Positions 6,524 through 27,644 of a DNA stretch of 33,465 bases are shown in pieces. The translations under genes were made by a program, and so were the position numbers. Positions within the stretch are counted from its first letter, which is position 1. Every line of letters begins with the position of its first letter. The stretch comes from Pseudobutyrivibrio sp. (GTDB lineage Bacteria; Bacillota; Clostridia; Lachnospirales; Lachnospiraceae), in contig JABUSV010000048.1 in assembly GCA_021442555.1 (NCBI GenBank), positions 1 through 33,465 on the forward strand, in the 5' to 3' direction. The notes beneath the pieces were generated by a model. The model had not been told where the DNA came from, did no database searches, and worked only from the letters and a program-made list of their open reading frames with translations.

Positions 6524-6586
6524 TGAAATCTCCTTATATTCCCTGTTTCTTTGACATATTAGAGTATATCGCAAAACAAAATAAGA

Positions 6587-6604
6587 GACCAGCCTAAGCT
6601 GGTC
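6587..6604 (-). terminator. Hairpin terminator at the end of the GH3-GtrA-GH3 operon
   Basis: GACCAGC-ctaa-GCTGGTC stem, followed on the minus strand by a T-rich run (CTTATTTTGTTTTG). Confidence 0.65.
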
Positions 6605-6621
6605 CCTTAGATTAACAACTG

Positions 6622-9546
6622 CTATTCACTTACTATTGTTGCTGCATTTGTTCTCTTCTTATATTTTTTAAGAAGTACTACCTCAAGTAGAATCAGAACA
6701 GCTGCCAGAGCAACATCTGCACCAACTACAGTCTTAACCCAAGCAGGAAGCTTGTCCGCATTGGCGATTGCACGGCTGTTAGCTACAGTATATAAGATAT
6801 TGTGAGCTGAATTTCTGGCTGCTACTACATTGCTGGCTGTGGACAGATCTGGATGATTTACTCCCATATCCATAGGACAAAGCATAATATCTGTACCATT
6901 GTAGATAGCCTGAGTAGCATTCATGTATCCATATACTCCGAAGTAATCTGTGAGAACCATGCCTCTAAAGCCCCACTCACCGCGAAGGATATCAGTCTGA
7001 ACCGGCTTGTATGCACCAGACCATGTGGTACCAATGTAGTTGAAGGATGCCATAAGTGCTGCTGGGATGTTTTCTGCAACGCAGCCCTTAACAGCTATCT
7101 CAAAAGCCTTGAGATAGTTTTCACGAGCAGCCTGCTCTGTTGTCCATGTACACATCATATTGGTACGATTAGTTTCCTGATCATTTAAAGCATAGTGCTT
7201 GAAGTATGAGTACACTCCACTTTCTGCTGCACCCTTGGCTGCCTCAAGAGCCATGTATCCCGATATAACTGCATCCTCTGAGTAGTACTCAAAATTACGT
7301 CCGGCAAATGCAGATCTGTGAATATTCATGGCTGGCGCATACCAACCTGATACATTCATCTCATCTGCCATCTTGCCAATACCCTGACCAAATGCTCTGG
7401 CAAGGTCTACATTCCAGGTAGCTGCAATCATGGTTGCTGCTGGATAGCCGATTGAAGATGCGCCTGTAAAATTGTTGTTAATGGAAGCTGGGCCATCACA
7501 GTCTGTTGTACCTGGATCGCCTACTGATGCAACTGCAGGTGTTGAATAACCACCATTTGCAATAAGGTTGTCCATATCCTCTACAGTAAGCTGATCTAAA
7601 AGTGTATCCCACTTTGGATCGTCATAGCTTAATCCTGTCATATCTTTTAAAGAAAGACCGTTTTTTGCACCAGTTGTTGGCATAACAGCTGACTCGTCTG
7701 GTGTAAATCCGCTAATAAAAGCATTGCTAAGATTTGTAAATGATGCAAGCTGAGCTTCTGTCATCTCATAATTGGTTGGAGCTGCTGTGGCCTCTGCATA
7801 ATTAGCAAATCCATCAGCACGAGAAAGGTATGTAACCTCTCCAACTGCATCCTGCATTTTATTTGTTGCTGCTTCAACATCAGTTGTGCGACCATCAGAA
7901 TACACTATATCTGAAGCTACAGCATACACTTCAGAATCAAGTATAGTGTGTGCGTCACCATTAACAGAGATTATATAATCGCCTGCTTCAAGTACATAGC
8001 ATCCCTTGCCCTTTTCATCAAAGGAAGCCAAATCTTCTGTGTTTACTGTTATGGTAAGAGTCTGGCTCTCTCCTGGCTTGATTACATCTGTTTTATCAAA
8101 TGCAATAAGATTGCAGGCAGATTTTTCAATACCACCATTTGTATATGGAGGGTTTGAATATACCTCTACAACATCCTTGCCAGCTACTGAACCAGTATTT
8201 GTAACTGTTACATCAAATGTAAGCACACCATCTGACTCTGTAACAGGTCCCATATCCTGGGCAAAGGTTGTATATGAAAGACCATATCCAAATGGATACA
8301 TAACAATAGAGTCATAATCAAATTCCATGTTGCCTGCCAATGCCTCAGCATAAGCTGTCTCATAGAACTTATAACCTACATAAATATCTTCTACATAGTT
8401 AACAAAATTTGGCTTAACCTCTGGGCTAAACTGTGATGCTTCTACAGTATACTGGTCAGCATTTGTATATCCAAAGAAACCAAAATTGTTGTACCAAGGT
8501 GTTGCTGTAAGATCCTTTACAAAAGTGTCTACTGTCTTACCTGATGGATTAACCTCACCTGTAAGAATCTCTCCAAGTGCAGTAAATCCAGTCTGACCTG
8601 CTCCTGCTGTCCAGATACATGCATCTACATCCAATTCATCAACAAAGCCAAGCTCCATTGCATTTGCTGCATTGACTACCACGATAACATTTGCGTAATC
8701 TGAGCAAACCTTCTCCATCATGGCACGTTCTCTGTTGGTAAGCTCAAGATAGTGCTTAGACGCATCAAGGTCATCCTTGTTTGAGCTTATACGTACACCG
8801 GATACGCCAAACATTCCACCACCATTATCTACAAAGGTATCTTCACCATCGTAACTCATAGGAAGGTCAGCGCCCTCTCCACCTGAACGGGCTATTACTA
8901 CTACTGCTGTATCAGAGAAGCTTTTAGCTGAATCAAAAATACCTGCTGCATTATAATCATCCATTGATGGTTCTGGAATGGTCCAATCCTGACCAAACAT
9001 ACCAACAGTTGGTCTGACTGCTGCATAATTCTTGTAAAAATCAACAAGCTCCTGATTTACCTCAAAGCCTGCATCTGTAAGTGACTGAATGATATCTACC
9101 TTTGGATAAGCATCTGAAGTAGAACCTGATCCAGTTCCTCCATATACAGGGTTTGTTGAAGACCAACCAAACACGTTAATCTTGCCCTTGTTTGAAAGTG
9201 GAAGTGTATTCGATTCATTCTTGAGTAGAACCATACCTTCTTCAGCTATTTCAGTACAGGTCTTTTGTGACTCCTCAATAGACTTGTCTGATATCTGGCC
9301 CCCACCTAATGCCAATGATACAAGCGTATTCATTGGTCCTGTTACTACGATGTTAATAATTACTACCAATGCAAGTAAAAAAGCTAACCATGTCTGTCCA
9401 CGAAGAAGCTTTTTTGTTGCTACAGGCTGTTTTCTAACCACAACTGTCATGACAATAGCAAGTACAAGTACAATAGCGATTGCTATAAGCTGTGGCTTAC
9501 AAGACTGTAATGCGGCAATTACGTCGCTAGGGTTAATTGCTAACAT
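6622..9546 (-). CDS. Membrane-anchored GH3 beta-glycosidase with permuted domain order
   Basis: Two N-terminal TM segments (LIAIAIVLVLAIVMTVVV; TWLAFLLALVVIINIVV) and one C-terminal TM (VALAAVLILLEVVLLKKYKKR). The C-type alpha/beta domain (GMVLLKNESNTLPL) and FnIII precede the TIM-barrel motifs (DCDGPAS, GRNFEYYSEDA, KHYALNDQETNR, VLTDYFG). Confidence 0.9.
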   Translation of the reverse strand: MLAINPSDVIAALQSCKPQLIAIAIVLVLAIVMTVVVRKQPVATKKLLRGQTWLAFLLALVVIINIVVTGPMNTLVSLALGGGQISDKSIEESQKTCTEIAEEGMVLLKNESNTLPLSNKGKINVFGWSSTNPVYGGTGSGSTSDAYPKVDIIQSLTDAGFEVNQELVDFYKNYAAVRPTVGMFGQDWTIPEPSMDDYNAAGIFDSAKSFSDTAVVVIARSGGEGADLPMSYDGEDTFVDNGGGMFGVSGVRISSNKDDLDASKHYLELTNRERAMMEKVCSDYANVIVVVNAANAMELGFVDELDVDACIWTAGAGQTGFTALGEILTGEVNPSGKTVDTFVKDLTATPWYNNFGFFGYTNADQYTVEASQFSPEVKPNFVNYVEDIYVGYKFYETAYAEALAGNMEFDYDSIVMYPFGYGLSYTTFAQDMGPVTESDGVLTFDVTVTNTGSVAGKDVVEVYSNPPYTNGGIEKSACNLIAFDKTDVIKPGESQTLTITVNTEDLASFDEKGKGCYVLEAGDYIISVNGDAHTILDSEVYAVASDIVYSDGRTTDVEAATNKMQDAVGEVTYLSRADGFANYAEATAAPTNYEMTEAQLASFTNLSNAFISGFTPDESAVMPTTGAKNGLSLKDMTGLSYDDPKWDTLLDQLTVEDMDNLIANGGYSTPAVASVGDPGTTDCDGPASINNNFTGASSIGYPAATMIAATWNVDLARAFGQGIGKMADEMNVSGWYAPAMNIHRSAFAGRNFEYYSEDAVISGYMALEAAKGAAESGVYSYFKHYALNDQETNRTNMMCTWTTEQAARENYLKAFEIAVKGCVAENIPAALMASFNYIGTTWSGAYKPVQTDILRGEWGFRGMVLTDYFGVYGYMNATQAIYNGTDIMLCPMDMGVNHPDLSTASNVVAARNSAHNILYTVANSRAIANADKLPAWVKTVVGADVALAAVLILLEVVLLKKYKKRTNAATIVSE

Positions 9547-10100
9547 TGTTCATCCTCCTTTTTTGTTTCTGGAAAAATTATTTTATTAACGAAGAAGAAT
9601 ACTACCATTGAGATTCCTCCGTTAAGCACTGTTGTACCGATATTGTATACCCAGGCTGGAACTAAAAGTCCGGCCACTGCAACCCAGATGCAGTTTATTG
9701 AGTTTACAACACAGGTAATGATACAAAATGCAAACACATACCAGGCTATCTGTTTTCCTGCCTTGTCATGGTTTCTAAAGACAAATATCTTTTGTATAGG
9801 GAAGTTTATGACCTCACCTATTACCATGGCTACCATATATGCTGCAAAGTATGCAAGACCACCGTGGGCCTGATCATATCCTAAGATATTCCACTGAAAT
9901 GTCTCATTAAAGAGAGTAAGTGGTATTCCCGGCCATCCAAAGGATGTATCGCCAAGTCCTGCAAATGCCTTGGGCAAAAAGGTTAAAAGCAAATACTTAA
10001 ATACTGTAATCAGATTGCTAACTATTACAAACAATCCACCTTCTCTGACCCACTTGGCAAGCTTGGGATTCTTTTTCTCAAATCTTGTCCAAATATTCAC
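9540..10100 (-). CDS. GtrA-like small multi-TM membrane protein
   Basis: 186 aa, about four TM segments, FPIQKIFVFRNHDKAGKQIAWYVFAF signature. GTG start at 10100 overlaps the upstream GH3 stop (TAGTG); its own end overlaps the downstream GH3 start by 7 nt. Confidence 0.75.
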   Translation of the reverse strand: MNIWTRFEKKNPKLAKWVREGGLFVIVSNLITVFKYLLLTFLPKAFAGLGDTSFGWPGIPLTLFNETFQWNILGYDQAHGGLAYFAAYMVAMVIGEVINFPIQKIFVFRNHDKAGKQIAWYVFAFCIITCVVNSINCIWVAVAGLLVPAWVYNIGTTVLNGGISMVVFFFVNKIIFPETKKEDEQC

Positions 10101-12478
10101 TATTTCAGACTCCTTTCATATTCCTTGTTTAGTCTTCTGTTTCTAAAGAAACCTGATATCACTTTACCTAATCCCTTAAAGAAATGACCATTAGCTATTA
10201 CTACAATACCTTCTGTCATTCCCCTGTCTATTAAGCCACCACTCATTTTGTACATGGCTCTAAATGGCATATTGTAGATGAAAAAGATATTTAAATCCGG
10301 AATCCCAGCCTCGTAGGAAGCATCCATCTTCTTTTTCAAAATCTTGTAGATTAATCTGCAAAGTCCACTCTTGGCATCTTTCATCTGACATAAAGCATCA
10401 TTAATCTCTAATGGCCCTGTCTTTTCTTCTGGAAGTGCTCTGCCATATAATCTGGCAAACTCATCACGATGAACATTTCTTATATGACCTGAAGCATAGC
10501 TTAATAGCTTGGTTAAATCATAAGGTGCAACATCAGTTGTTCCTTTTATTTCTATTACGGTATCAAGTCTGATGTCTGCGCTGGATGCTCCTACCAAAAT
10601 AGTGTATTCTCCTGCTTCTGTCTCAAAAGAGTCAGTTGCTACATTAAAATACCTGAAGCTCTTATCATCAAATGGGATGGTGACAACCTTTTCTTCACCT
10701 GGCTTGAGAGAAACCTTGGTAAAACCTTTTAGTTCCTTATATGGTCTTATTACCGAGGTATCAGCTTTTCTAATATACATCTGAGCTATCTCTTCACCTG
10801 CCAATAAACCAGTATTTTTTATCTTAAAGGTGATGCCTATGTCGTTTATGTTAAGGTTGCTGTATTCAAAGGTTGTATAGCTTAGTCCAAAACCAAATGG
10901 AAACTGTACAGGTATCTCAGCCTTTTCGTAATATCTGTAGCCTACATATATTCCCTCTCTGTACTCCAGATTTCTATTCTCTACTCCATCGTAATGCTCT
11001 ATTGAGCAATCAGCATAGGAGTATGGATAAGACTCTGCAAGCTTGCCAGATGGATTAGCCTGACCTGTCAGTAAATCCAACATGGCGCTTGCTCCAGCCT
11101 GCCCTGTCAGATATCCATGAAGCAGACCACTTAGATTATCAATCCAAGGCATCTTCACAGCACTTCCTGCTGACATGATTCCAACCACCTTGGCACCAAG
11201 TCTGTGTAAGCTCTCCAGTTCTTTTATCTGGTATTCTGGAATATCCATGGAAAGTCTGTCAGCACCTTCTGACTCTGACACTTCGTCCAGTCCAAAGAAG
11301 AATAAAACAACATCTGCTTTATCTATATCTCTTACAACCTTTAACTTATACTTTTCTACCTCTTCTGATATTTTCTCTATATGAGTTGCATTAACTTGAG
11401 ATGAACCAGCTCCCTGGTATCTTGGTTTATCTGTAAACGGTCCTCTTAGGGCTACCTTACAGCCCGGCTTGAGAGGAAGTACATTGTCCTCGTTTTTAAG
11501 AAGTACTGCACTTTTTTGGGCTGCTTCTCTTGCAATATTATGATGAGACTCCTTATCAAAATCATCTGTTGTAGCAGGATGCTCTTTAAAATACTCTACT
11601 GCCTCGATGATTGGAACCAGTGCCTCATCAAGCTCTTCTTCTGAGAGTCTTCCACACTCAACTGCTTCAATCAGTTCTCTGGCAGATCCAAGGCCAGGAT
11701 TTGGCATCTCACAGTTAGACAGGCACTTAACACCATCAACATGGTCATTACTTGCGCCCCAGTCTGTTACTACTATTCCATCAAAGCCCCACTCTTTTCT
11801 TAAGATATCAACCAAAAGATGCTTGTTCTCATTTACATAACTGCCGTTTACTTCGTTGTAGGAAGACATAATAGCCTTGGCCCTGCCTTCCTTAACTGCT
11901 ATCTCAAAGCCTGTAAGATATATCTCCCTTAGAGTCTGTTCATCAACCACTGAATTCATGGCCATTCTTCTGTATTCACGGCTGTTTACCGCAAAATGCT
12001 TTGGACATGCATACACGCCCTGGCTCTGAATACCTCTTATATATGAAGCTGCCATCTTGCCTGCAAGAAAAGGATCCTCTGAAAAATATTCAAAGTTTCT
12101 TCCGCACAATGGTGATCTTTTGATATTAAGACCCGGTCCCAACAATACATTTACATTTTGTGCCTTGGCTTCCTGCCCCAGTGCCTCACCTATTTTTGTT
12201 CCCAGTCTCTCATCCCAACTGTTTGCTATTGTAGCTGCTGTAGGAAAGCAAGTAGCAGGAAGTGAATCATTCAATCCCAAATGATCGCCAGCACCATCAA
12301 GCTGTCTTCTAAGACCATGAGGTCCATCTGAGAATGTTATAGATGGAATTCCTTTTGAAGGTATGTCCCGAAGTTCCCATTCATTCTTACCTGATAACAG
12401 AGCTGCCTTCTCCTGTAAAGTTAAGCTTTCAATAATCTCACTTACGTTCATTTTCATCCCTCTAAGATTTGACAACAT
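10100..12478 (-). CDS. Canonical-order GH3 beta-glycosidase with an extra C-terminal region
   Basis: TIM barrel first (FSDGPHGLR, LCGRNFEYFSEDP, CPKHFAVNSREYRR, VVTDWGA), then SAVLLKNEDNVLPL, YPFGFGLSYTTFEY and an FnIII domain; no signal peptide. Confidence 0.9.
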   Translation of the reverse strand: MLSNLRGMKMNVSEIIESLTLQEKAALLSGKNEWELRDIPSKGIPSITFSDGPHGLRRQLDGAGDHLGLNDSLPATCFPTAATIANSWDERLGTKIGEALGQEAKAQNVNVLLGPGLNIKRSPLCGRNFEYFSEDPFLAGKMAASYIRGIQSQGVYACPKHFAVNSREYRRMAMNSVVDEQTLREIYLTGFEIAVKEGRAKAIMSSYNEVNGSYVNENKHLLVDILRKEWGFDGIVVTDWGASNDHVDGVKCLSNCEMPNPGLGSARELIEAVECGRLSEEELDEALVPIIEAVEYFKEHPATTDDFDKESHHNIAREAAQKSAVLLKNEDNVLPLKPGCKVALRGPFTDKPRYQGAGSSQVNATHIEKISEEVEKYKLKVVRDIDKADVVLFFFGLDEVSESEGADRLSMDIPEYQIKELESLHRLGAKVVGIMSAGSAVKMPWIDNLSGLLHGYLTGQAGASAMLDLLTGQANPSGKLAESYPYSYADCSIEHYDGVENRNLEYREGIYVGYRYYEKAEIPVQFPFGFGLSYTTFEYSNLNINDIGITFKIKNTGLLAGEEIAQMYIRKADTSVIRPYKELKGFTKVSLKPGEEKVVTIPFDDKSFRYFNVATDSFETEAGEYTILVGASSADIRLDTVIEIKGTTDVAPYDLTKLLSYASGHIRNVHRDEFARLYGRALPEEKTGPLEINDALCQMKDAKSGLCRLIYKILKKKMDASYEAGIPDLNIFFIYNMPFRAMYKMSGGLIDRGMTEGIVVIANGHFFKGLGKVISGFFRNRRLNKEYERSLK

Positions 12479-12502
12479 GTTAATACACAGATGTTTTGTC
12501 TG

Positions 12503-12531
12503 TATTTACGTTTTATCACATATATTTTCAA
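12503..12531 (-). promoter_or_regulatory. Putative sigma-A promoter for the GH3-GtrA-GH3 operon
   Basis: Minus strand TTGAAA (12531-12526), 17 bp, TAAATA (12508-12503), upstream of the start at 12478. Confidence 0.45.
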
Positions 12532-12546
12532 ATGAAGCATTCAAAG

Positions 12547-12576
12547 GATAACTTGTTAAATTTTCGTGATAACTTG
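12547..12576. promoter_or_regulatory. Candidate LytTR-type direct repeat
   Basis: GATAACTTG at 12547-12555 and again at 12568-12576: exact 9-mer repeat with a 12-bp spacer, 21-bp period, next to a LytTR regulator gene. Confidence 0.5.
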
Positions 12577-12608
12577 CATGATACATTTCTTTTTGTTATC
12601 TTCTAGAC

Positions 12609-13313
12609 ATGATTAATTTATGTATTGTGGAGGACGAAACAGACCAGGCAGATATACTGCAGGGTCTCATATCGGATTATGAAAAGTCTCATAACTGCCA
12701 GCTTTCTGTAACACACCTGTCTGATGGTATAGACCTGGTAGATGGCTACTGTGGGCAGTACGATATCATTCTTTTGGATATTCAGATGAAGCATATGAAT
12801 GGTATGGATGCTGCTGAAAAGATCAGAGCCTTGGATAATAATGTTGTTATTATCTTTATTACTTCCACCGTTCAATACGCTGTTCAGGGCTACGCTGTAG
12901 ATGCTTTGGGCTATGTTCTAAAGCCTGTCAGTGCCGCTGCTTTTGAGAAGCTTTTGGACAAATCCATTGATAAAGTTAATTCTTCCAGGGAAAAGGTCTA
13001 TATAAAGATCTCAGTAGAGGACAAGCAGCTTAAGCTTGACTGCCAGTCTATATACTATATAGAAAGTTCCAGAAACAATGTTGTTATTCACTGCAAAAAC
13101 GACAGTTTTGTTACTTCTGGTCCTCTTAAAAAGTTTGAGGAGTTATTATGGGACAAGGGATTTTTTAAATGTCACAATGCATATCTTGTCAATCTTTCAA
13201 TGGTTGATGCGATACAAAAGGAAGACGTAATCCTATTGGATAATACTACTTTGCCCATTAGCCGTAACAAGAAAAAAGAGTTTATGTCAGAGTTGACAAA
13301 GGATATTTTATGA
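12609..13313 (+). CDS. LytTR-family response regulator (AgrA/VirR type)
   Basis: Receiver domain (VEDE, DIILLDIQMKHMNGMDAAEKIR, KPVSAAAFEKLL) plus LytTR domain (YYIESSRNNVVIHC, FFKCHNAYLVNLSMVDAI, LPISRNKKKEF). Confidence 0.92.
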   Translation: MINLCIVEDETDQADILQGLISDYEKSHNCQLSVTHLSDGIDLVDGYCGQYDIILLDIQMKHMNGMDAAEKIRALDNNVVIIFITSTVQYAVQGYAVDALGYVLKPVSAAAFEKLLDKSIDKVNSSREKVYIKISVEDKQLKLDCQSIYYIESSRNNVVIHCKNDSFVTSGPLKKFEELLWDKGFFKCHNAYLVNLSMVDAIQKEDVILLDNTTLPISRNKKKEFMSELTKDIL

Positions 13314-14623
13314 TGCTTGTGACCTTTTTCAAACCTGAAATCCTTCAGGATACCCCAAGATTTTTTACCGCTATTGCCGAATGGCTTGCAGTCTTCATAT
13401 ATCTTTTTATGTTCAAAAAAAGATATACTGGTCCTAGACTGTGGCTAAGCTGTGCAATAGCTTTTTTTATCATAGCAGCTCAACAGGCTGTTGCAGGTGT
13501 GCTATCCATATACTGGTGGATTCCATCCATGATACTTTCCGTTGCCATGATGTATATATTTATGTATGTTATCCTGGATATTACACCTCTAGATTGTGGA
13601 CTGTTTACCTCCACAGCCTTTGTATTGGCAGAGCTTTCTGCATCCTTGTACAGGCAGCTGTACGTATGGCTGATTGCGGAACGTACTGACACCTTCTTAG
13701 CATCTTTTATATTCATGATACTAATCTATTCCATTGTCTATTATTTCTTTTACAGGATTCAAAAAGACAACATACCTGACACCGTAGACCTGGGCACTAC
13801 CCTAAGCGAGCTGTCCGGTGCAGTAATCACAGCACTTGGTGCATTTTTCATGAGCAATATCAGCTTTGTTTGGACCAACACTCCATTTTCTGCCACCAGC
13901 AACATGCTGTACGTTAGAACTCTTGTAGACTTTGGAGGGCTTCTGATGCTTATTACACAGCAAGACAGACGTACTCAGCTTATGATCAAGCACGAAAAGG
14001 ATGCCATAGACCAACTGTTTCATAAGCAATACAATCAATATCGTCAAACCCTGGATAACTCAGAGCTATTAAGGAAGGAAATGCACGACCTCAAACACTA
14101 TCTGGCAGCTCTAAGAGGTGAAGACGACCCAGTCAAGCGAGAGGAAGTTCTGGCTGATATGGAACAGGCAATTGCTATTCAGGAATCCTTCATGAACACT
14201 GGCAATCAGGTGTTAGATGTTATATTAACAGGAAAAAGTCTTGCCTGCAGCAAGGCTAAAATTACCTTAAGTGCAATGGTTGACGGCAGTCTGTTAGAGG
14301 GTATACATGTTAAGGATATTTGCTCTTTGTTTGGAAATATACTGGATAATGCCATTGAGGCTACTCAGCAGGTTGAAGATGTAGATATGCGTCTGATTAA
14401 TCTTTCCATGCACAAGACCAATCAGTTTATAGTAATAGAATGCGAGAATTATTTTACTTCAAAAATCAGCAGTTCTGATATGCCTCGCACCACAAAAAAC
14501 GACACCATTCACCATGGTTATGGATTAAAATCCATCAATCAGGTAGCGGACAAATATCATGGTGGCATGACAATATCGGTAGAAAATAATTGGTTTAAAA
14601 TAAAAGTACTGCTAAGCAAATAG
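13310..14623 (+). CDS. GHKL-family sensor histidine kinase (AgrC-like)
   Basis: Multi-TM N-terminus; KEMHDLKHYLAALRG phospho-acceptor region; LFGNILDNAIEAT N-box; GYGLKSINQVADKYHG G-box; 4-nt overlap with the regulator gene. Confidence 0.9.
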   Translation: MMLVTFFKPEILQDTPRFFTAIAEWLAVFIYLFMFKKRYTGPRLWLSCAIAFFIIAAQQAVAGVLSIYWWIPSMILSVAMMYIFMYVILDITPLDCGLFTSTAFVLAELSASLYRQLYVWLIAERTDTFLASFIFMILIYSIVYYFFYRIQKDNIPDTVDLGTTLSELSGAVITALGAFFMSNISFVWTNTPFSATSNMLYVRTLVDFGGLLMLITQQDRRTQLMIKHEKDAIDQLFHKQYNQYRQTLDNSELLRKEMHDLKHYLAALRGEDDPVKREEVLADMEQAIAIQESFMNTGNQVLDVILTGKSLACSKAKITLSAMVDGSLLEGIHVKDICSLFGNILDNAIEATQQVEDVDMRLINLSMHKTNQFIVIECENYFTSKISSSDMPRTTKNDTIHHGYGLKSINQVADKYHGGMTISVENNWFKIKVLLSK

Positions 14624-14647: not shown

Positions 14648-17044
14648 TTAATCAAATTTTAGAATCAGCTCAAGAACTCTTTTTGCACATTTTTGTATGT
14701 CATTTCTTGTAATGGCTCCCATATCCAGGGCTTTTTTTACTCTCTTTGGATAACCACAAGCCATCTTCACATCGTTACCTGCGAGTATCTCCTTATAATG
14801 TTCGCCTCTGGTCCACCAGTCTGTGGTAACCATTCCATCAAAACCCCACTCATCACGAAGTATGCCATCCAATAGTTCCTTGCACTCAGAGGCTCTGTGT
14901 CCATTGATGACATTGTATGAGGTCATAATAGTCCATGGCTTTGCTTCTTTGACTATTATCTCAAACTGCTTAAGATATATTTCTCTTAGTGCTCGTTCTG
15001 ATACTCTTGAATCACAATGCTTTCTGTTTGTTTCCTTGTTGTTGGCGGCAAAATGTTTAACAGAACAAGCCACATTGTTAGACTGTATACCTCTGACCAT
15101 AGCAGCAGCCAACTTTCCAGTAAGAAGTGGATCTTCTGAATAGTATTCAAAATTACGTCCACAAAGAGGATTCCTGTGAATGTTTACTGCAGGTGTCAGC
15201 CATATAGCCAGATTATTCTCCTTGAGTTCTGCGGCGCCTGCCGTGCCTACCTGCTCTATTAAGGCTTCGTTCCAGCTGCATGCTAATGTAGTAGCACATG
15301 GCCAGGCAGTAGTTGCCACACCACAGCATGGGTTGATGCGAACCCCGGCTGGCCCGTCTGATGTCATTATACTTGGGATTCCATATTCTGGCATGTTGCC
15401 CATACCCCATGTGTTAGCCACGCCAAGATTAGGCTGGCCTCCTAAAAGCTCAATAAGCTCCTCAGTCTCCATCTGATTCAAAAAATCATCAAGACTAAGC
15501 TTATCTTCTGCTACATCAATAAGAGGATGTTTGCCCTCTTTGCAGGTGGAAAACAAAAATACACTTTCCCGTCCTCTCACTGCTGGAGCATAGCCTTCCT
15601 CTGTACCAGGAATCATTTTATCAAATATACAATCGTCTTTATCATTAGGTTGTCCTGCAGGTAAACTCTCATAGGTGCCGTCTGACAATAGTCTTTTTTC
15701 AAGCTGTGTAGGAGCACACCGACTGACTAACTGCTGAAGTATGGTATCCTTTTCAACAGTTATGGTACCAGCTTCAAACACATCACTTATATTGCTTCCA
15801 ACATACAGTCCATATTCACCTGCTTCAAGTACATAGGCTGATTTTGCAATTATGCCCAAGTCGTCATAGGAAGACATCATATACCTGTTAAAACTAAGTT
15901 GAAGCTTTTCCTTTTCACCAGGTAAGAGCTCCTTAGTTTTTTTAAAGGCAACAAGGCTCTTTTTTGACTTTGACAGCTTTAAAGAAGGAGCCGTAACATA
16001 CAACTGCACAACTTCTTTTCCTGCTGCATTTCCCGTGTTTGTTACTGTTACATCTACTATTATTTTATCATTGGATTTGGCACAGTCATTTACTTGTATA
16101 GCAAAGCTGGTATAGCTTAGACCATAACCAAATGGGTATACTCTTGGCTTGTTAAAAGTCTCAAAATATCTATAACCTACAAAAATATCCTCTATGTAAT
16201 CCACATAATCATAGCTTTGATGAAAACCTGCTGTGGATGGATAGTCTTCAAGTGACGCCGCATAGGTATCAACCAGCTTTCCGCTGGGATATTTGATACC
16301 GCATATTACTTCAGCTGCTGCACTTCCGCCCTCCATTCCACCCTGACCTATATTTAGACAGGCTGATATTCTATCATCATCTCTGATCCAGCTTGTATCT
16401 ATTATTCCACCAATATTTAATATAACACCTACTTTATCATATAAAGATGTTACCTTTTCTATAAGTGTTTTTTCTGACTGTGTCAGATAAAAATCTCCAT
16501 CTGGGAAAATCTCACCTGAGAGCTTTGGCATAGACGTCTCCGACTCCCATGGGTTATATTCACCTTCATACACTACAGTGGAACGATCCCAGCCTTCTCC
16601 AGAGAATCGACTAATAAAAATAAGTGCTACATCAGAGTTTTTGGAAGCCTCCTTGTACATGTCATCACTAAGTACAGGTTCTGATATCATGCCAGCAGCG
16701 GCCCCCTTTGAATACATATCCAGCACGTAGTCTCTGTAATAATCTGAAAGAGGTTCAAACACAACTACATGCTCTGTTTCCTTTAGCCCCTGGTAGACGT
16801 TTTTTATATACCTGGTATATACATCACCACTTCCGCCGCCGCCTTTTACATAATCAAAAGAACCCTTTCCAAACAGTGCTACCTTTGCATTCTTTTTTAG
16901 CGGGAAAAGCCCATTATTCTTTAATAAAACAATTCCTTCAGTAGCAGCTTCCTTGGATAAAGCTATATGCCTGCTACTGCAGGTTACCCTTTCATCCCCA
17001 AGAGGAAGATTTGGCTGATATTTCAATCTAGCCCATTTTTCCAT
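14648..17044 (-). CDS. Domain-permuted GH3 beta-glycosidase, cytoplasmic
   Basis: 798 aa: GIVLLKNNGLFPL and YPFGYGLSYTSF come first, then TSDGPAGVR, LCGRNFEYYSEDP, VKHFAANNKETNR and TTDWWTRGEH; no signal peptide or TM. Confidence 0.9.
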   Translation of the reverse strand: MEKWARLKYQPNLPLGDERVTCSSRHIALSKEAATEGIVLLKNNGLFPLKKNAKVALFGKGSFDYVKGGGGSGDVYTRYIKNVYQGLKETEHVVVFEPLSDYYRDYVLDMYSKGAAAGMISEPVLSDDMYKEASKNSDVALIFISRFSGEGWDRSTVVYEGEYNPWESETSMPKLSGEIFPDGDFYLTQSEKTLIEKVTSLYDKVGVILNIGGIIDTSWIRDDDRISACLNIGQGGMEGGSAAAEVICGIKYPSGKLVDTYAASLEDYPSTAGFHQSYDYVDYIEDIFVGYRYFETFNKPRVYPFGYGLSYTSFAIQVNDCAKSNDKIIVDVTVTNTGNAAGKEVVQLYVTAPSLKLSKSKKSLVAFKKTKELLPGEKEKLQLSFNRYMMSSYDDLGIIAKSAYVLEAGEYGLYVGSNISDVFEAGTITVEKDTILQQLVSRCAPTQLEKRLLSDGTYESLPAGQPNDKDDCIFDKMIPGTEEGYAPAVRGRESVFLFSTCKEGKHPLIDVAEDKLSLDDFLNQMETEELIELLGGQPNLGVANTWGMGNMPEYGIPSIMTSDGPAGVRINPCCGVATTAWPCATTLACSWNEALIEQVGTAGAAELKENNLAIWLTPAVNIHRNPLCGRNFEYYSEDPLLTGKLAAAMVRGIQSNNVACSVKHFAANNKETNRKHCDSRVSERALREIYLKQFEIIVKEAKPWTIMTSYNVINGHRASECKELLDGILRDEWGFDGMVTTDWWTRGEHYKEILAGNDVKMACGYPKRVKKALDMGAITRNDIQKCAKRVLELILKFD

Positions 17045-17047
17045 ATC

Positions 17048-17386
17048 CTATTGCTCCTTTACTACTGTAAGAAGCATCTTAAATCTGTCCTTGGCCTTTA
17101 CTGAGTGCGGTACCCCTGATGGCATTACGATACCTTCTCCTGCCTTTACTACATATGATTTGTCAGCTATGGTAATATGCGCTTCACCCTCTAATACGTT
17201 AACAAAAGCATCTCCTGGTGCAGCATGAGTACTCACTCCCTCTCCTGCATCAAAAGCCATAAGTGTCATTGCTACTGCCGGTCTTTGAGCCATTGTAAGA
17301 CTGGCTACTGAGCCTTCCTGATAATCTATCAAATCCTTGATAGTTACAATTGTTTCATGTTCAATATTTTTTATTAATTCGCTCAT
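17048..17386 (-). CDS. Small cupin-domain protein
   Basis: GEGVSTHAAPGDAFVNVLEGEAHI...GEGIVMPSGVPHSV cupin motifs. Confidence 0.8.
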   Translation of the reverse strand: MSELIKNIEHETIVTIKDLIDYQEGSVASLTMAQRPAVAMTLMAFDAGEGVSTHAAPGDAFVNVLEGEAHITIADKSYVVKAGEGIVMPSGVPHSVKAKDRFKMLLTVVKEQ

Positions 17387-17391
17387 ATTTT

Positions 17392-17724
17392 TTACTCCTT
17401 TACTGTTATCTGTAAAAACTTCGCATCTTTGTTTCCATCAACACTGTGTAATACATGAGATGGAACCATTATGACCTCCCCTTTATTAACAGGATATGTG
17501 TTATTCCCATACTTAATCTCTATGTATCCCTCTAACACATAATAAAGAGTATCTCCATAATACTCTTCTTCACTTACATTTTCAAAATCTGAAAATGCCA
17601 TTAGTACAACGCTGGTATCACAGTCTCTTGTCAATGCCTTACTAACAACCTGATGAGGCTTAATATCAATAAGCTCATTTAATGATTTTGCCCTTTCGAT
17701 TGGTATGTTTTTTAGCTGCGCCAT
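17392..17724 (-). CDS. Small cupin-domain protein with degenerate metal motif
   Basis: YYGDTLYYVLEGYIEIKYG...KGEVIMVPSHVLHSV; GGAGGGG ribosome-binding site. Confidence 0.75.
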   Translation of the reverse strand: MAQLKNIPIERAKSLNELIDIKPHQVVSKALTRDCDTSVVLMAFSDFENVSEEEYYGDTLYYVLEGYIEIKYGNNTYPVNKGEVIMVPSHVLHSVDGNKDAKFLQITVKE

Positions 17725-18542: not shown

Positions 18543-19640
18543 CTCGTGTTCAATAATATATGACCTAAGCTGTTCATATATCTTATCCTCATCAGGCGGA
18601 CACCCCATGATACACACATCATAATTCTTGGTACATTTTCCTATGCCAAGATGGCCTGTCTGCCCCTGATGACCTTGTCCTATTGCAATCTGCTCGTGAA
18701 GCTTTGCAAGCAGTCCCTCTTCTTCAAGACGACACAGTGCCGGAACAAGATTCCCGTAGCAGGCACTGCAGGAATCCACCTCATCTACTGTATAAGACAC
18801 CTTAAGAATCTTATCCTGCCTATGAATAGTGTTGTCAAGATTACCCTCGTTTAGATGGATAATCTCAGCACAGGAAAGATCACTTATTCCAGATCCCAAT
18901 TGTTCAGCAAGTGCAATATATGGCACCTCAGATACGTCATAACCCATGATACTGCAGGCAAAGCTGTCAACCAGCACTGGATCCATGGCAGCCATAACAC
19001 AGTTTCTGATTACAGGGTTTCCCCCGTCTTCAAAATCCAAATCTCCACAGATATGATCCACCACAATAAAATCCTGATGTATTCCACAGGATAGATGTGC
19101 TATTGGTGCATGTAAACCAAGAGTGTGGAACTTGCGCTTTTCTGTGTTAGGAATAAGTCCCTTCATGTTTTTAAGAGCGCAGGTAACCTTAGTCTGACAA
19201 TGGCCCTTAATAACAGGTACATTAATTAAAAAATCCACCCTATCCACAACATCACAGATGTTTAAGGCCATTCCTTTACAGTCCACCTCATGATATCCAT
19301 CCTTTTGGGTATCATAAAAAGGCACCTGATACTTTTCAGACAGTTCCTTAAAACCACAGAACTCGTAGGCATCACTGGTCTTGTCTCCTACCCATGAGCC
19401 CTCTAACATCATAATATTATTATGCCCATTATCCTTAAGATATTCTATAATGCCTGCCACCACCTGGGGATGTGTTGTAGCTCCAAATTCTGCAGGAGTT
19501 GGCGCAACAAGGTTAGGCTTAATTCCAACCATTGTATCCTTAGAGGGTATCAACGATATCAAATCAGCCTTATCCAAAAGCTCTTTTGTCATATCCTTGT
19601 AATCGGTTCCATAAATCTTAAAAAGCTGGTTTTTATCCAT
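18537..19640 (-). CDS. DUF362-family protein with Cys-rich C-terminus
   Basis: GIKPNLVAP, NVPVIKGHCQTKVTCALKNMKGLIP core; later CSACYGNLVPALCRLEEEGL and GIGKCTKNYDVCIMGCPPDED. Confidence 0.8.
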   Translation of the reverse strand: MDKNQLFKIYGTDYKDMTKELLDKADLISLIPSKDTMVGIKPNLVAPTPAEFGATTHPQVVAGIIEYLKDNGHNNIMMLEGSWVGDKTSDAYEFCGFKELSEKYQVPFYDTQKDGYHEVDCKGMALNICDVVDRVDFLINVPVIKGHCQTKVTCALKNMKGLIPNTEKRKFHTLGLHAPIAHLSCGIHQDFIVVDHICGDLDFEDGGNPVIRNCVMAAMDPVLVDSFACSIMGYDVSEVPYIALAEQLGSGISDLSCAEIIHLNEGNLDNTIHRQDKILKVSYTVDEVDSCSACYGNLVPALCRLEEEGLLAKLHEQIAIGQGHQGQTGHLGIGKCTKNYDVCIMGCPPDEDKIYEQLRSYIIEHEL

Positions 19641-20595
19641 TAATCATCCTTGTCACTTCCTCAACTGTAGGCATTACTCTTAATGCTCCCTTACGAGTTG
19701 TAATAATAGATGCTGCTGCATTGGCAAAGTTAAGCATCTCAAAAAGAGCTGCCTCATCCAAGTCTTTATAACCGTGCTCCAATACATAGTGCAAACAGCA
19801 GGCTCCAAAGGTATCTCCTGCACCTGTAGTCTCTACAGTGTCCTGTCTTATATATGCATCTGCATGGGCTCTGTGGCCATTACAGTATGCGCGGCTTCCG
19901 TCTTTTCCCAGTGATAACAGAATAAGTGGAATATGATATGTATCTGAAAGCTTTGCTACCGCCTCATCGTAATCGTCTATTCCTGTAAACCACTGTATTT
20001 CATTATCTGATATCTTTAGTACATGACATTTGCCAAGTCCATATTCTAACTGTTGTCTCATGATATCCATTGATGGCCACAGTGATTCTCTGATATTAGG
20101 ATCAAAGGAAATAATGCAGTTATTAGCCATAGCCACATCAATAGCATGCTTAGTCGCGGCTCTTACGCCATCATGAGTCATGGAAAGTGTTCCAAAGTGA
20201 AATATTTTTGCCTGACTAATCAACTCATCATCAACCTCTTTTATATCCAACATCATGTCGGCGCCAGGATTACGATAAAATGAAAAGCTTCTGTCTCCTG
20301 TCTCATCATTTTCTACAAAAGCCAATGTGGTTCTTGCTTCTTTTCCTACAACAAGACCTGTTGTATCTATACCTATATCCTGCAAAATAGTTTTGAGCTT
20401 AAGCCCGAAAATATCCTCTCCCACCTTGCCAATAAATGCACATTTATGACCAAGGTTTAAAAGCATACTTAAAACATTACATGGTGCTCCTCCAGGATTT
20501 GCTTCAAATAAGCCATTGCCCTGAGGGCTTATACCTGAAGATATAAAATCTATAAGCAGCTCACCAAGCGCTACTACATCGTATTTTTTATCCAT
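19633..20595 (-). CDS. PfkB-family carbohydrate kinase, probable fructokinase
   Basis: VVALGELLIDF, NPGGAPCNVLSML, TTGAGDTFGACCL; sits in a sucrose/fructan operon. Confidence 0.9.
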   Translation of the reverse strand: MDKKYDVVALGELLIDFISSGISPQGNGLFEANPGGAPCNVLSMLLNLGHKCAFIGKVGEDIFGLKLKTILQDIGIDTTGLVVGKEARTTLAFVENDETGDRSFSFYRNPGADMMLDIKEVDDELISQAKIFHFGTLSMTHDGVRAATKHAIDVAMANNCIISFDPNIRESLWPSMDIMRQQLEYGLGKCHVLKISDNEIQWFTGIDDYDEAVAKLSDTYHIPLILLSLGKDGSRAYCNGHRAHADAYIRQDTVETTGAGDTFGACCLHYVLEHGYKDLDEAALFEMLNFANAAASIITTRKGALRVMPTVEEVTRMING

Positions 20596-21572
20596 TATGT
20601 ACTCTCTCTTTTAACTAATGATACCGGAAGTAACGATCTTGTTGGAACAGCATCTCCATCATTCTTATGAATGAGCATCTCTATAGCCATCTGAGCCATT
20701 TCCTTAATAGGCTGATGAATAGTTGTGATGCTTGGGGTAGTCAGAGAAGATACAATAACATCATCAAAACCCACTACCTTTATTTCTTCCGGGATTTTAA
20801 TCCCATGCTTTGCGCAAACCTGAATAACCTGCGCGGCAATCAAATCACTGCTGGCAAATATTCCATCAACATCCTTGTGATTGAGCACACATTCCTCTAA
20901 AAAATCTCTGTACTCCAGATTATTATATTGTTTTATATTGGTGGCTATCTCATAGTGCTTCACCTGATACTTTTCGCACACTTCTATAAAAGCGTTAGCT
21001 CTGGCATCAGCAGGCATAGCAGTCTCATGCACACCGCTAATATGTAATAGATTGCGACATCCCCGTTCTATCAGATGCTCTGTTGCCATGCGTCCGCCCT
21101 GAGCATTATCACACTCTATGGAAGCATCACCATTTTCCAAATATCGTTCCAGGGTAATAATAGGAATATTACTGCCCTTGAATTCATCTATGGATACAAC
21201 TGCAGAGCCAAGAATTATTCCCGCCACGCGGTTGCTGGTACACATCTCAAGATATTCTCTTGTCTTGGCATCCTTTCCCTGGGAATTACATAAGATAATC
21301 TTGTATCCTCTCTTATACGCTTCATTCTCCAGATTGCTGATAAGCTCACTGAAATATGGATGCTTTATGTGAGGCATGATTACACCAATAGTATTGGTAG
21401 ATTTTTTTGAGAGGCTTCTGGCCACCTCATTTGGGTGGTAGTTGAGCTTTTTCATTGCCTCATATACCTTTTGACGGGTCTCATCGCTGATATATCCCCT
21501 GTTATTCAATACTCGAGATACTGTGGTTACTGTAAGTCCAGTCTCAGCTGCCACATCTTTTAATGTTGCCAT
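20595..21572 (-). CDS. LacI-family transcriptional regulator
   Basis: ATLKDVAAETGLTVTTVSRVLNNRGYISDETRQKVYEAMKKLNYHPNEVARSL HTH plus periplasmic-binding-like effector domain. Confidence 0.95.
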   Translation of the reverse strand: MATLKDVAAETGLTVTTVSRVLNNRGYISDETRQKVYEAMKKLNYHPNEVARSLSKKSTNTIGVIMPHIKHPYFSELISNLENEAYKRGYKIILCNSQGKDAKTREYLEMCTSNRVAGIILGSAVVSIDEFKGSNIPIITLERYLENGDASIECDNAQGGRMATEHLIERGCRNLLHISGVHETAMPADARANAFIEVCEKYQVKHYEIATNIKQYNNLEYRDFLEECVLNHKDVDGIFASSDLIAAQVIQVCAKHGIKIPEEIKVVGFDDVIVSSLTTPSITTIHQPIKEMAQMAIEMLIHKNDGDAVPTRSLLPVSLVKREST

Positions 21573-23023
21573 AACTCCTCCATTCGATAGACGGTTACCT
21601 TGGGCTTAAAATCGCTCTCCCAAACTATCGTATTTGTATTCCCACTAAGAAGATATGCCCCAAGTAATAAGTTATCCCCCTGGGTCACTTCAAGAATATT
21701 ATAATCTATTGCAAGGAAAATTCCACGTGACTCTGGTAACATTTTATAGCTTTTATCATCAATGATAATGGTTCTTTCAGCTGCTTGATATGATATTTTT
21801 GTATCACCTGAAAAAAATGTCCAGTTACAATCGCCAACATCCTCTATTACAAGATTAAACGGGCCCTTATCAGGCACCTTATCACAGACAACAAATCTGT
21901 CTGCCACTTCTTTGGGAAGCTTCATGCTAAGACTAAGTGCATCCTCTAATCTACATAAAGAAAGCTCTCTGGGATATCCCATGGCACCATTGTAGTTAAT
22001 ACCGTTGGCATTAAGCTTAAGCCATGGTATTTGAATAGTTCTGTCCTTAATCCCCGAATAGCTTTGAGCTGCATAAGGCACTTTATTGGCATATGCTTCA
22101 TGTTTGATGCCATCTGTTTTAAACTCATATCCATCAAAATCGCCTGCATAAAAGAAACCATCAGCAGCAATAAATACCCATACTTCCCTGCCATCCACAT
22201 TAAAAGGTATAAGATCAGGACACTCCCAGGCATCAGGAAGTGTTAGACGTTGTGTCGGATTCCAGTTATATAAATCCTTGGATCTAAAGATGCCAAAATC
22301 ATTGGCATCAATATATAAAACCATGATATAGGCATCACTTTTTTCATGCCAAAATACCTTGGGATCTCTCGTTTCTTTGGTTATAACATCCACGCAGACA
22401 CCAGGCTGTTTTTCTAGAGTCAATCCTCCATCTTGGCTTATGGCCATACGCTGTGTAGGCAGCTTACTCTGACTCCATCTGGTGGCGCCAGCTGCAGTAT
22501 AAAAGAAATACAGCTTATCATCTTTTTTTATGCCACTGCCAGAAAACATCATACCGTTTTCATCAGGAAATAATACAACATCATGTTGTATCCAGTTCAC
22601 AAGGTCAGTACTTGTAGCATGGCCCCACATCATATTATCCCAGATACAGTTAAAAGGATTATATTGAAAATACAGATGATAGTATTGCCCATCATATACC
22701 AGCCCATTAGGGTCGTTAATCCAACCATGATTTGCAGTAAAATGTAAACAAGGTCTGGGCTCCACATTATTGTATGGCATGTTCTCATTTCTTATGGAAT
22801 TCAAATATTCATCCGAAAAATCCCCTTCAAAATCAATATCTTTTCCTATATATTCTGATACCAGAACAGAGGCAAAATACTCTTCACAGTATCCTGCCTC
22901 CTGTTTTTGAATGAATGGTATATTAAATTCGTGTATCTTTTCGCCCTCACAAAAGAGGGACAGATACTCATGGGTACCTTTTTTGTTAATTGGAAACCAC
23001 AAGTACTTTTTTTCTATATGCAT
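21560..23023 (-). CDS. GH32 sucrose/fructan hydrolase, intracellular
   Basis: WINDPNGLVYDGQYYHLYFQYNP, TRDPKVFW and WECPDLI motifs; no signal peptide. Confidence 0.93.
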   Translation of the reverse strand: MHIEKKYLWFPINKKGTHEYLSLFCEGEKIHEFNIPFIQKQEAGYCEEYFASVLVSEYIGKDIDFEGDFSDEYLNSIRNENMPYNNVEPRPCLHFTANHGWINDPNGLVYDGQYYHLYFQYNPFNCIWDNMMWGHATSTDLVNWIQHDVVLFPDENGMMFSGSGIKKDDKLYFFYTAAGATRWSQSKLPTQRMAISQDGGLTLEKQPGVCVDVITKETRDPKVFWHEKSDAYIMVLYIDANDFGIFRSKDLYNWNPTQRLTLPDAWECPDLIPFNVDGREVWVFIAADGFFYAGDFDGYEFKTDGIKHEAYANKVPYAAQSYSGIKDRTIQIPWLKLNANGINYNGAMGYPRELSLCRLEDALSLSMKLPKEVADRFVVCDKVPDKGPFNLVIEDVGDCNWTFFSGDTKISYQAAERTIIIDDKSYKMLPESRGIFLAIDYNILEVTQGDNLLLGAYLLSGNTNTIVWESDFKPKVTVYRMEELWQH

Positions 23024-23032
23024 ACCTTCTCC

Positions 23033-24448
23033 TTAAGAATGAGTTATCTCAAACTCCTTTGATTCAAAGTCTGCCACAAGTCTTGCAAAATCTCCACCAT
23101 TTTTTCTCACAATCACAAGATGCTTATCATCACACTCTTCCAGTTCAAAGCTTCCATCAAAGGCCCTGTGTGTATTTCTAAATCTCATAAGATCAAGTAA
23201 AGATTGAACCACAGGCCTTTTTATTTCATCATCAATCTCTTCGATGGTGTAATAGTGTCTGTTGATGTTGCGTCCCACCTTGGTCTCCTCCAAAAGCTTT
23301 AAATCATTTTGACCAGCCAAAAGTCCTACATAATATATCTGTGGTATACCGGGTGCAAAAAGCTGAACAGCTCTTGCCAATAGATATGCTTTGTCGTCAT
23401 CTCCCAATGCAGAATAATAGCTGCAATTAACCTGATATATATCAAGATTGTTATAAGCTGCGGTGTTGTATATCTTTTTGACGTTTGCACCGTATTTAAA
23501 TATGTCTTCCTTGGTTCTTTCTATCTCCTCATCTGGAAGAAGATCCTTTACATCTACCACTCCTATTCCATCGTGAGTATCAAGGGTGGTAAACTGCTTT
23601 CTTGGGCAGATTCTCAGCCAATTCTTAAGATACTGGGTCTGACCATAATATAATGCATTGATAAGAAGCATCGGAAGAGCAAAATCATATACATAGTAAT
23701 CTTTTCCTGCTATCTTTTTTTGCATGGTGTAATGCTCATGAATCTCAGGAAGAAGAACAGTACCAAAAGGTTCAACTATTTTATCGCACTCTCCTATGAA
23801 CTCCCAAATATCAGGCTCTATGAAAAAACAGCTGGTACCTGCTTTTTTGGTGGCATAGGCAAAAGCATCCAATCTAACCAACGCCGCGTTGTGTTTACAA
23901 AGAGTCTCCAAGTTATCTCTTATAAAAGCCTTGGCTCTATCAGACTTGCAGTTGATATCTATTTGCTCCTCATCAAAAGTACACCATACTTTTTCTGTGG
24001 TGCCATCAAAAAACTTAGCGTCTACATAAGGTGCTCTTGGTTTTCTCTTATAGATGACATCTACCTCCTCAGGTGTAGGTTCTCCATTATCCCAGAAATC
24101 CTTATATCTTATGAATAAATCCTTATATTCAGATTCATCTTTTTTCTCCAGAAAGTCCTTGTAATACTCACTCTGAGCAGATATGTGATTTATCATATAG
24201 TCAAACATCAGATAATAGTTTTGCGCCAAAGCATCAATGTCAGACCAATCTCCAAAGGCAGGATCTACAACATGATAGTTGGTAGGTGCGAATCCTCTGT
24301 CACCAGATGAAGGAAAAAATGGAAGGACATGAACACCTCCTATTGCATCTTTAAAATGCTTATCCAGTACATACTTCAAGTCCTTTAGATTGTTGCCCAT
24401 GCAATCAGCATAGGTAATAAGCATGCATTTATTCTCCAATTTTCTCAT
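23033..24448 (-). CDS. gtfA: GH13 subfamily 18 glycoside phosphorylase, probable sucrose phosphorylase
   Basis: ITYADCMGNNLKDLKYVLD, GGVHVLPFFPSSGDRGF, VRLDAFAYATKKAGTSCFF, LPEIHEHY, TLDTHDGIGVVD, PGIPQIYYVGLLAGQND. Confidence 0.88.
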   Translation of the reverse strand: MRKLENKCMLITYADCMGNNLKDLKYVLDKHFKDAIGGVHVLPFFPSSGDRGFAPTNYHVVDPAFGDWSDIDALAQNYYLMFDYMINHISAQSEYYKDFLEKKDESEYKDLFIRYKDFWDNGEPTPEEVDVIYKRKPRAPYVDAKFFDGTTEKVWCTFDEEQIDINCKSDRAKAFIRDNLETLCKHNAALVRLDAFAYATKKAGTSCFFIEPDIWEFIGECDKIVEPFGTVLLPEIHEHYTMQKKIAGKDYYVYDFALPMLLINALYYGQTQYLKNWLRICPRKQFTTLDTHDGIGVVDVKDLLPDEEIERTKEDIFKYGANVKKIYNTAAYNNLDIYQVNCSYYSALGDDDKAYLLARAVQLFAPGIPQIYYVGLLAGQNDLKLLEETKVGRNINRHYYTIEEIDDEIKRPVVQSLLDLMRFRNTHRAFDGSFELEECDDKHLVIVRKNGGDFARLVADFESKEFEITHS

Positions 24449-25302
24449 TTCACCGCTCCTGCTGTTACACCTTCAACGATATATCGCTGTAGGAAAATAT
24501 ATAGTATCAATATAGGTAACATGGCCAATAACAAGGCGGCCATAATAAGTCCCATATCTGTAGAATAGGTGCCATAAAACACCTTGGTTGCAATAGGTAT
24601 TGTATAAAGCTCCTTGCGTCCTAATACCAGTGATGGTAACAGGTAATCATTCCAAAATGCCATTGCATCAATGATGGCAACTGTAGCTATGGTAGGCTTA
24701 AGCAATGGAAATACTATCATCCAAAAAGTCTGCCATCTGCTGCAGCCATCTATTCTAGCAGCCTCCTCCAAGGAAATAGGCACATTGGTTTTGATTGAAC
24801 CATGGAACATAAAGGTTGCCATGGATAAGGAAAAACCTACATGCATAAATATCAGGGTTGCCCTGTGATTTAGGATTCCAAAGATTCCACCGTATAAGGA
24901 TACAAGAGGAATCATTAGTACCTGAAATGGAATAACCATAGATGCAATCATCAATACAAAAACTATTTTTCCAAACTTCCAGTTATTTCTTTGAATTACA
25001 AAGGCTGTCATGGAAGACAACAGTATTGTAAAAATGGTCGCTAAAGTTGTTATAATTACAGAATTTCCAAAAGACTGCCAGAACTTCATTTTTTCCATAG
25101 CCTTAGGAAAATTAGCAAGTGTAAAACCATGCTTTCCTATCAGTGCAAGAGGCTGACCAACAATATCTGATTTAACCTTGAATACATTGATAATTACCAT
25201 GTAAAAAGGAAAGATAAAACAGAATAAAAGTACAGCTAATATGACTATCATAATTGTATGACGTATTAATCTATTGATTCTGGCTTTTTTGTTAGCATCC
25301 AT
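24445..25302 (-). CDS. Carbohydrate ABC transporter permease (MalG-like)
   Basis: Multi-TM protein; EEAARIDGCSRWQTFWMIVFPLLKP EAA loop. Confidence 0.93.
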   Translation of the reverse strand: MDANKKARINRLIRHTIMIVILAVLLFCFIFPFYMVIINVFKVKSDIVGQPLALIGKHGFTLANFPKAMEKMKFWQSFGNSVIITTLATIFTILLSSMTAFVIQRNNWKFGKIVFVLMIASMVIPFQVLMIPLVSLYGGIFGILNHRATLIFMHVGFSLSMATFMFHGSIKTNVPISLEEAARIDGCSRWQTFWMIVFPLLKPTIATVAIIDAMAFWNDYLLPSLVLGRKELYTIPIATKVFYGTYSTDMGLIMAALLLAMLPILILYIFLQRYIVEGVTAGAVK

Positions 25303-26183: not shown

Positions 26184-26206
26184 AGCATTTTCCCCTTTCA
26201 AAATAA

Positions 26207-26249
26207 CTAATTATGGAGGGAGCTAATGCCCCCTCCAAGAGGTAATTAG
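26207..26249 (-). other. Intercistronic mRNA hairpin between SBP and malF-like gene
   Basis: Outer arms CTAATTA/TAATTAG and inner arms TGGAGGG/CCCTCCA; the SBP stop codon lies in the outer arm; no T-tract strong enough for a clear terminator. Confidence 0.6.
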
Positions 26250-27580: not shown

Positions 27581-27644
27581 GTTATCCTCCTTCTCAAAAA
27601 CATGTGGTTTATTATGTAGCAAATCCTAACATCATGTTTCCGCT

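Follow-up and report, generated by a model that had tools for sequence, protein, structure and literature searches.

A LytTR-linked operon of two GH3 enzymes and a GtrA-like membrane protein in Pseudobutyrivibrio: a possible two-sided membrane β-glycosidase module

Described relatives and layout of the operon

Each part of the operon reported here belongs to a known family. Proteins of the GtrA/GtcA family (PF04138) have been proposed as C55-P-sugar flippases (PMC7389260, PMC7117936), and in Listeria GtcA alanine changes at R95, K121, and N132 impair LTA and/or WTA glycosylation (PMC7389260). A GtrA-type fold together with a cytosolic glyco-enzyme is also found in dolichyl-phosphate mannose synthase (DPMS; PDB 5mlz, 9ep0), where a GT2 transferase is fused to the membrane domain. 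Among GH3 enzymes, GlyA1 (PDB 5k6l; PMC5104943) and BrGH3A (PMC11233000), both of gut or rumen origin, have the permuted order C domain-Fn3-N domain, and Clostridium thermocellum BglB (PDB 7ms2) has the canonical order. The link between LytTR regulators and membrane GH3 enzymes was noted in 2010, when three LytTR regulators of Butyrivibrio proteoclasticus were described close to secreted GH3s carrying a TM helix at the C terminus (Kelly et al. 2010, PMC2914790); that article does not mention GtrA, and we saw in it no GH3 with the C-terminal extension described below and no binding site. LytTR sites consist of 9-nt direct repeats 12 nt apart (PMC6193735). Our search of open-access text, which covered GtrA with GH3, GtrA with LytTR, and GH3s for glucosylceramide or steryl glucosides, found no report of a GtrA-GH3 link.

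We analyzed a 33,465-nt stretch of Pseudobutyrivibrio sp. DNA (hereafter, the window), in which an earlier note had described three coupled minus-strand genes. Reading frames, strands, and overlaps were as described there: the TAG stop of the inner GH3 gene shares 1 nt at 10100 with the GTG start of the GtrA-like gene, and the stop of the latter overlaps the ATG start of the membrane GH3 gene by 7 nt (9540-9546). Because of these overlaps and a closing hairpin at 6582-6609, the three genes look like one transcription unit. Two terminator-like sites were found in the scanned region, against 0.1 expected. The features are as follows.

6582 to 6609, minus strand: terminator-like hairpin at the operon end (12-pair stem and T-run)
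6622 to 9546, minus strand: membrane-anchored permuted GH3 (Pfam, hydropathy, alignment of 26 homologues)
9540 to 10100, minus strand: GtrA-like protein with four TMs, from the subfamily that accompanies GH3s (PF04138, AF2, subfamily alignments)
10100 to 12478, minus strand: inner GH3, canonical order, BglB-type (Pfam; no signal peptide, predicted cytosolic)
12547 to 12576, minus strand: LytTR-type direct repeat CAAGTTATC-N12-CAAGTTATC upstream of the operon (exact 9/9 repeat)
12609 to 13313, plus strand: LytTR-domain response regulator (PF04397 and PF00072)
13310 to 14623, plus strand: GHKL (AgrC-type) membrane histidine kinase (PF14501; weak AgrC match)

A LytTR/GHKL system and a putative target site

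Divergent to the operon lies a LytTR/GHKL two-component system (12609-14623) that recurs in relatives; both this system and the LytTR-type repeat had escaped the earlier note. The repeat is located within the 130-nt intergenic region between operon and regulator. Its core pattern has one exact match in the genome sequence searched, and when up to 3 mismatches are allowed the window would be expected to contain 0.07 occurrences. Of 164 cassette GH3 genes, 28 are preceded by repeats spaced 12 nt apart; spacers of 8-11 and 13-16 nt gave 0 to 2. Where the regulator is close, the repeats tend to be of the CAAGTTATC type; where it is more distant, they are of the ACCGTT type and similar. The operon of the window has, as LytTR-regulated operons do, a regulator and upstream 9-nt repeats at 12-nt spacing, which we regard as a putative site. 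No consensus sigma-70 promoter was found in 12440-12640, which fits activator dependence, though it does not prove it. In relatives, automatic ORF choice recovered the LytTR/GHKL pair in 44 of 100 loci. This figure is too low, since the automatic choice takes wrong-strand ORFs in GC-rich genomes.

An AgrC-type kinase and a LytTR regulator that seems to have one target site could also belong to a signal or defense module. The kinase would then sense a toxin or signal bearing a sugar, which the glycosidases would inactivate or mature. The presence of another membrane GH3 that has a LytTR pair to itself points the same way. Among the recurrent neighbors, however, there is no gene for a peptide, an exporter, or immunity, and we consider this reading highly improbable.

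Conservation of the three-gene unit

In a first survey, a single-sequence search of 150 genomes of the same family, the GtrA-like protein was found in 20 genomes, nearly always adjoining a GH3. When 84,980 species genomes were scanned, at least 584 GtrA relatives came up. We retained the best 80; being the closest ones, these are phylogenetically clustered and not independent. They come from Lachnospiraceae (Butyrivibrio, Pseudobutyrivibrio, and others), from Gemmiger, Faecalibacterium, Lawsonibacter, and Pseudoflavonifractor, and from Olsenella/Atopobiaceae in another phylum. Among these best 80 of at least 584 relatives, a canonical-order GH3 adjoins the GtrA gene in 78, and 70 have a same-strand membrane GH3 no more than 4.5 kb away. 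The two exceptions to GH3 adjacency are a locus at a contig edge (L112) and one with a membrane GH3 only (L088), and the loci of Coriobacteriia are without the membrane GH3. Three gene orders occur, with the membrane GH3 first (34 loci), last (30 loci), or in the arrangement membrane GH3-GtrA-inner GH3 (L200 and L208). The median gap between the inner GH3 and GtrA genes is 17 nt. As a control, 30 ordinary GtrA loci of the same family (L140-L169) were inspected, and a GH3 was found within 1.5 kb in one of them (L168), which is itself close to a cassette.

Co-occurrence led to the same picture. Of 120 family genomes, 18 carried a GH3 with the C-terminal extension (called at E < 1e-20); 17 of these 18, and no other genome of the draw, carried the full-length GtrA subfamily (Fisher p ~1e-19, uncorrected for phylogeny). 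One genome (G042) has the extension-GH3 and the membrane GH3 with no GtrA detected. In two others (G053 and G139), GtrA and extension-GH3 are both present and not adjacent, and in G053 copies of the membrane GH3 lie on yet other contigs. In a 60-genome draw, the full-length membrane GH3 (at least 47% identity) was found in 8 of 9 GtrA-positive genomes and elsewhere only as one fragment (G028). Comparison of the distance matrices of the three proteins gave correlations of 0.28 to 0.61, which carry little information because most GtrA copies are very alike. We conclude that the GtrA-like protein and the extension-GH3, mostly with the membrane GH3, very probably form a conserved, sensor-linked unit. 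The earlier note had taken the three genes for a functional unit and had suggested the neighborhood search; the adjacency and co-occurrence extend well past close relatives, and none of the findings that it had named as fatal to its proposal was made.

Among 103 proteins of sampled loci, the recurrent neighbors were Response_reg (12), HATPase_c_5/GHKL (11), and LytTR (11), all other families reaching 4 at most. No transporter family (ABC, MFS, or PTS) stands out among the first 25 families listed for these loci, so the conserved dedicated transporter of Gram-positive polysaccharide utilization loci was not seen there, and the GtrA-like protein is therefore the only transporter candidate of the unit. 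This bears on the view that the operon is an ordinary plant-fiber locus, its GH3s being cellobiose- or xyloglucan-type β-glycosidases of a polysaccharide utilization locus and GtrA a passenger. The rumen and gut distribution would agree with that view, as would the GH5, ABC permeases, and sucrose/fructan locus also present in the window and the reported link of permuted GH3s to gut plant feeders (PMC5104943). Nevertheless, co-occurrence and adjacency argue against GtrA being a passenger, and no transporter recurs with the cassette; we give this view little credence.

In many Butyrivibrio loci, a GGDEF protein of ~375 aa lies directly upstream of the cassette (e.g., L059:4350-5468 and L073:1288-2415).

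The two enzymes, the GtrA-like protein, and how they might work together

Both enzymes have the N and C domains, the nucleophile Asp, and the acid/base Glu of GH3, in line with the family given in the earlier note; in each, we infer from the motif which Glu is the acid/base. The inner GH3 consists of GH3_N, GH3_C, and Fn3-like domains (Pfam) and has no TM segment by hydropathy. Its AF2 model (pLDDT 86) resembles C. thermocellum BglB, with ~40% identity in the fold comparison and the same domain order, as well as other β-glucosidases, and D239, E402, and E404 are invariant in the family alignment. Unlike BglB, it bears an elaborated, GtrA-linked C-terminal extension of ~140 residues (~650-792), which is helical in the AF2 model (helices at 705-723 and 766-791), has no sequence relative in the PDB, and matched no non-GH3 protein. 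The peak hydrophobicity of this extension (KD) is ~1.0 in the Butyrivibrio group, 1.6-1.8 in Gemmiger/Faecalibacterium, and 2.6-3.0 in Coriobacteriia (maximum, 2.97), where it should span the membrane. In three loci of Coriobacteriia lacking the membrane GH3 (L083, L103, and L107), the inner GH3 terminates in a highly hydrophobic segment that probably crosses the membrane. Some GH3s without an adjoining GtrA have the tail in a weak form (L197-L199). Furthermore, a GH2 enzyme replaces the inner GH3 in L206 and L209 and joins it in L202; these GH2 genes (L202:7252-9705, L206:2448-4877, and L209:6889-9294) encode DUF4982 and GH2_C5 domains.

The membrane GH3 has the same three Pfam domains in permuted order (C domain, 105-392; Fn3-like, 458-530; N domain, 701-894), which is the order of the GlyA1 subfamily, and GlyA1 (5k6l) was among its PDB matches. 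Its catalytic D867 and E224 are invariant in an alignment of 26 homologues, and the catalytic Asp and Glu are likewise kept in GlyA1 and BrGH3A. Unlike those enzymes, it is anchored in the membrane at both ends, and its operon also encodes a GtrA-like protein and an inner GH3. The TM layout given in the earlier note was reproduced by hydropathy, with two N-terminal segments (~19-37 and 54-72) and one C-terminal segment (940-958), and none in the other GH3. Because the first loop (5 K/R, 0 D/E) and the C-terminal tail (5 K/R, 1 D/E) are positively charged, the catalytic part is predicted to lie outside, as had been proposed.

Neither enzyme could be assigned as an exo-α-(1->6)-L-arabinopyranosidase (NF041610), the inner GH3 scoring 649 bits and the membrane GH3 240 bits against an equivalog cut-off of 1300. 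A second membrane GH3 of 1010 aa, 39% identical to the first, is encoded elsewhere in the same genome (L224:490-5740; G000:C70). It has its own divergent LytTR/GHKL pair, with no GtrA or inner GH3 beside it, and the scan applied to the operon found no LytTR repeat upstream of it. Since this enzyme has no GtrA, the outer enzyme can work without a GtrA-like protein.

The GtrA-like protein matches GtrA_DPMS_TM (PF04138) at 33.9 bits against a cut-off of 26.1, over profile positions 24-115, and some members of its subfamily score below that cut-off. Its AF2 model, which is moderately confident (pLDDT 70.6), has the four long helices of the GtrA family and a beta hairpin at 59-70. The N terminus has 6 K/R residues and the TM2-TM3 loop has 4, against none in the long TM1-TM2 loop, so the N terminus is predicted to lie inside and the long loop outside. 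The four TM helices, the inside N terminus, and the conserved family Phe (108) and Lys (173) are thus shared with GtrA/GtcA proteins. No natural GH3-GtrA fusion was seen among the open frames found, and a PHROGs search gave no match.

We compared 45 subfamily rows with 30 ordinary GtrA proteins (28 from L140-L169 and two from the window's genome). Unlike ordinary GtrA, the subfamily carries an insertion of 40-60 residues between TM1 and TM2, predicted as an outside loop, and the TM1 Gly found in 30/30 ordinary proteins is Ser in 44/45 rows. We infer the columns corresponding to GtcA R95, K121, and N132 from alignment, spacing, and motif, and all three are replaced. The R95 column in TM3, R in 17/30 controls, has T in 30 rows, S in 11, and other uncharged residues in the rest, with R in none. 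The K121 column, K in 22/30 controls, has N in 33, D in 9, P in 2, and T in 1. The N132 column in the last helix, N in 30/30 controls, has F in 37, Y in 4, I in 2, and S in 2, and N in 0/45. The subfamily has polar residues of its own, namely, N99 and Q103 in 45/45 rows, together with E/Q96 and R/K104.

The earlier note had relied on GtrA-flippase homology to suggest that the operon processes a lipid-linked sugar. Under that reading, of lipid-linked sugar recycling or envelope glycan remodeling, GtrA would flip an undecaprenyl-phosphate or glycolipid sugar that the GH3s remove or transfer. Family membership and the C55-P-sugar role proposed for GtrA proteins favor it, but the equivalents of R95, K121, and N132 are absent and no GtrB-type transferase is among the recurrent neighbors; the partner here is a glycosidase and not a glycosyltransferase. 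Because the Arg, Lys, and Asn needed by GtcA are missing, an undecaprenyl-phosphate-sugar flippase role appears unlikely, and this part of the earlier proposal is not supported; we judge the reading as a whole improbable. The lost residues probably tell what the GtrA-like protein is not, and not what it is. In several Pseudobutyrivibrio loci a soluble GT2 lies directly downstream of the cassette (e.g., L045:11764-12777 and L085:11645-12658); it was considered as a GtrB partner and rejected, having no TM segment and no GtrB assignment.

The best PDB matches of the GtrA-like model were membrane domains of DPMS, a weak match (Foldseek E 0.5, prob 0.96, TM-score 0.48). In the main alternative, the GtrA-like protein would transport nothing and would hold the cytosolic GH3 at the bilayer, as in DPMS but with a separate hydrolase in place of a fused transferase, and the GH3 docked through its extension would cleave membrane-embedded glycolipids. 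The fold match, the co-occurrence of extension and GtrA, and the amphipathic to transmembrane character of the extension all agree with such a platform. On the other hand, a cytosolic dock gives no obvious use to the conserved outside loop and hairpin, the place of the inner GH3 can be taken by GH2 enzymes free of the extension, and GH3s without an adjoining GtrA bear a weak version of the tail. We regard the platform as unlikely, while ranking it as the chief competitor.

We prefer, at a probability of about 0.4, to read the operon as a sensor-controlled, two-sided membrane β-glycosidase module. The histidine kinase would respond to a glycoside outside the cell, or to a product of it, and the operon would be turned on by the LytTR regulator. 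The membrane GH3 would trim β-glycosides at the outer face, the GtrA-like protein would move a neutral small or amphipathic β-glycoside across the membrane or present it there, and the inner GH3, held at the membrane via its extension, would cleave the glycoside and release sugar into metabolism. Movement or presentation of a neutral glycoside is favored because the recurrent neighbors include no transporter and because the GtrA-like protein, which has its own polar set and an outside hairpin, lacks the charges of a phosphate-sugar flippase. The replacement of the inner GH3 by a GH2 enzyme in L206 and L209, and the addition of one in L202, fit a general translocator. Such a permease or presentation role, read from sequence features, seems to us plausible at somewhat less than even odds. 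Several points weigh against the module: the DPMS membrane domain, which is the best (weak) fold match, is part of an enzyme and not a known transporter; the model of the GtrA-like protein is of moderate confidence; G042 has both GH3 types with no GtrA detected; the second membrane GH3 of the window's genome has no GtrA beside it; and the 80 loci are phylogenetically clustered.

Still more tentatively, a branch of the GtrA fold may have passed from flipping phosphate-sugars to handling neutral β-glycosides or glycolipids, as a small permease or as a platform that presents them, coupled to glycosidases on both membrane faces and to its own sensor; this would be a transporter-enzyme type of which we found no described example in the open-access literature. 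If the module reading is true, an undescribed route of β-glycoside uptake and cleavage exists in many common bacteria of the gut and rumen (Butyrivibrio, Pseudobutyrivibrio, Faecalibacterium, Gemmiger, and Olsenella), and a GtrA-fold protein has taken a new role, offering a testable case beyond lipid-phosphate sugars. The sensor and putative binding site named here give a handle for finding the inducer, and membrane-anchored permuted GH3s gain a context.

Other features of the window may be recorded. Just past the kinase, on the other strand, a third GH3 of permuted order without TM segments is encoded at 14648-17044. A sucrose/fructan locus at 19633-27622 comprises a sugar kinase, a LacI-type regulator, a GH32-like enzyme, sucrose phosphorylase, ABC permeases, and a binding protein. 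AT-rich direct repeats with a 21-nt period are present at 24096-24128 and 17364-17394.
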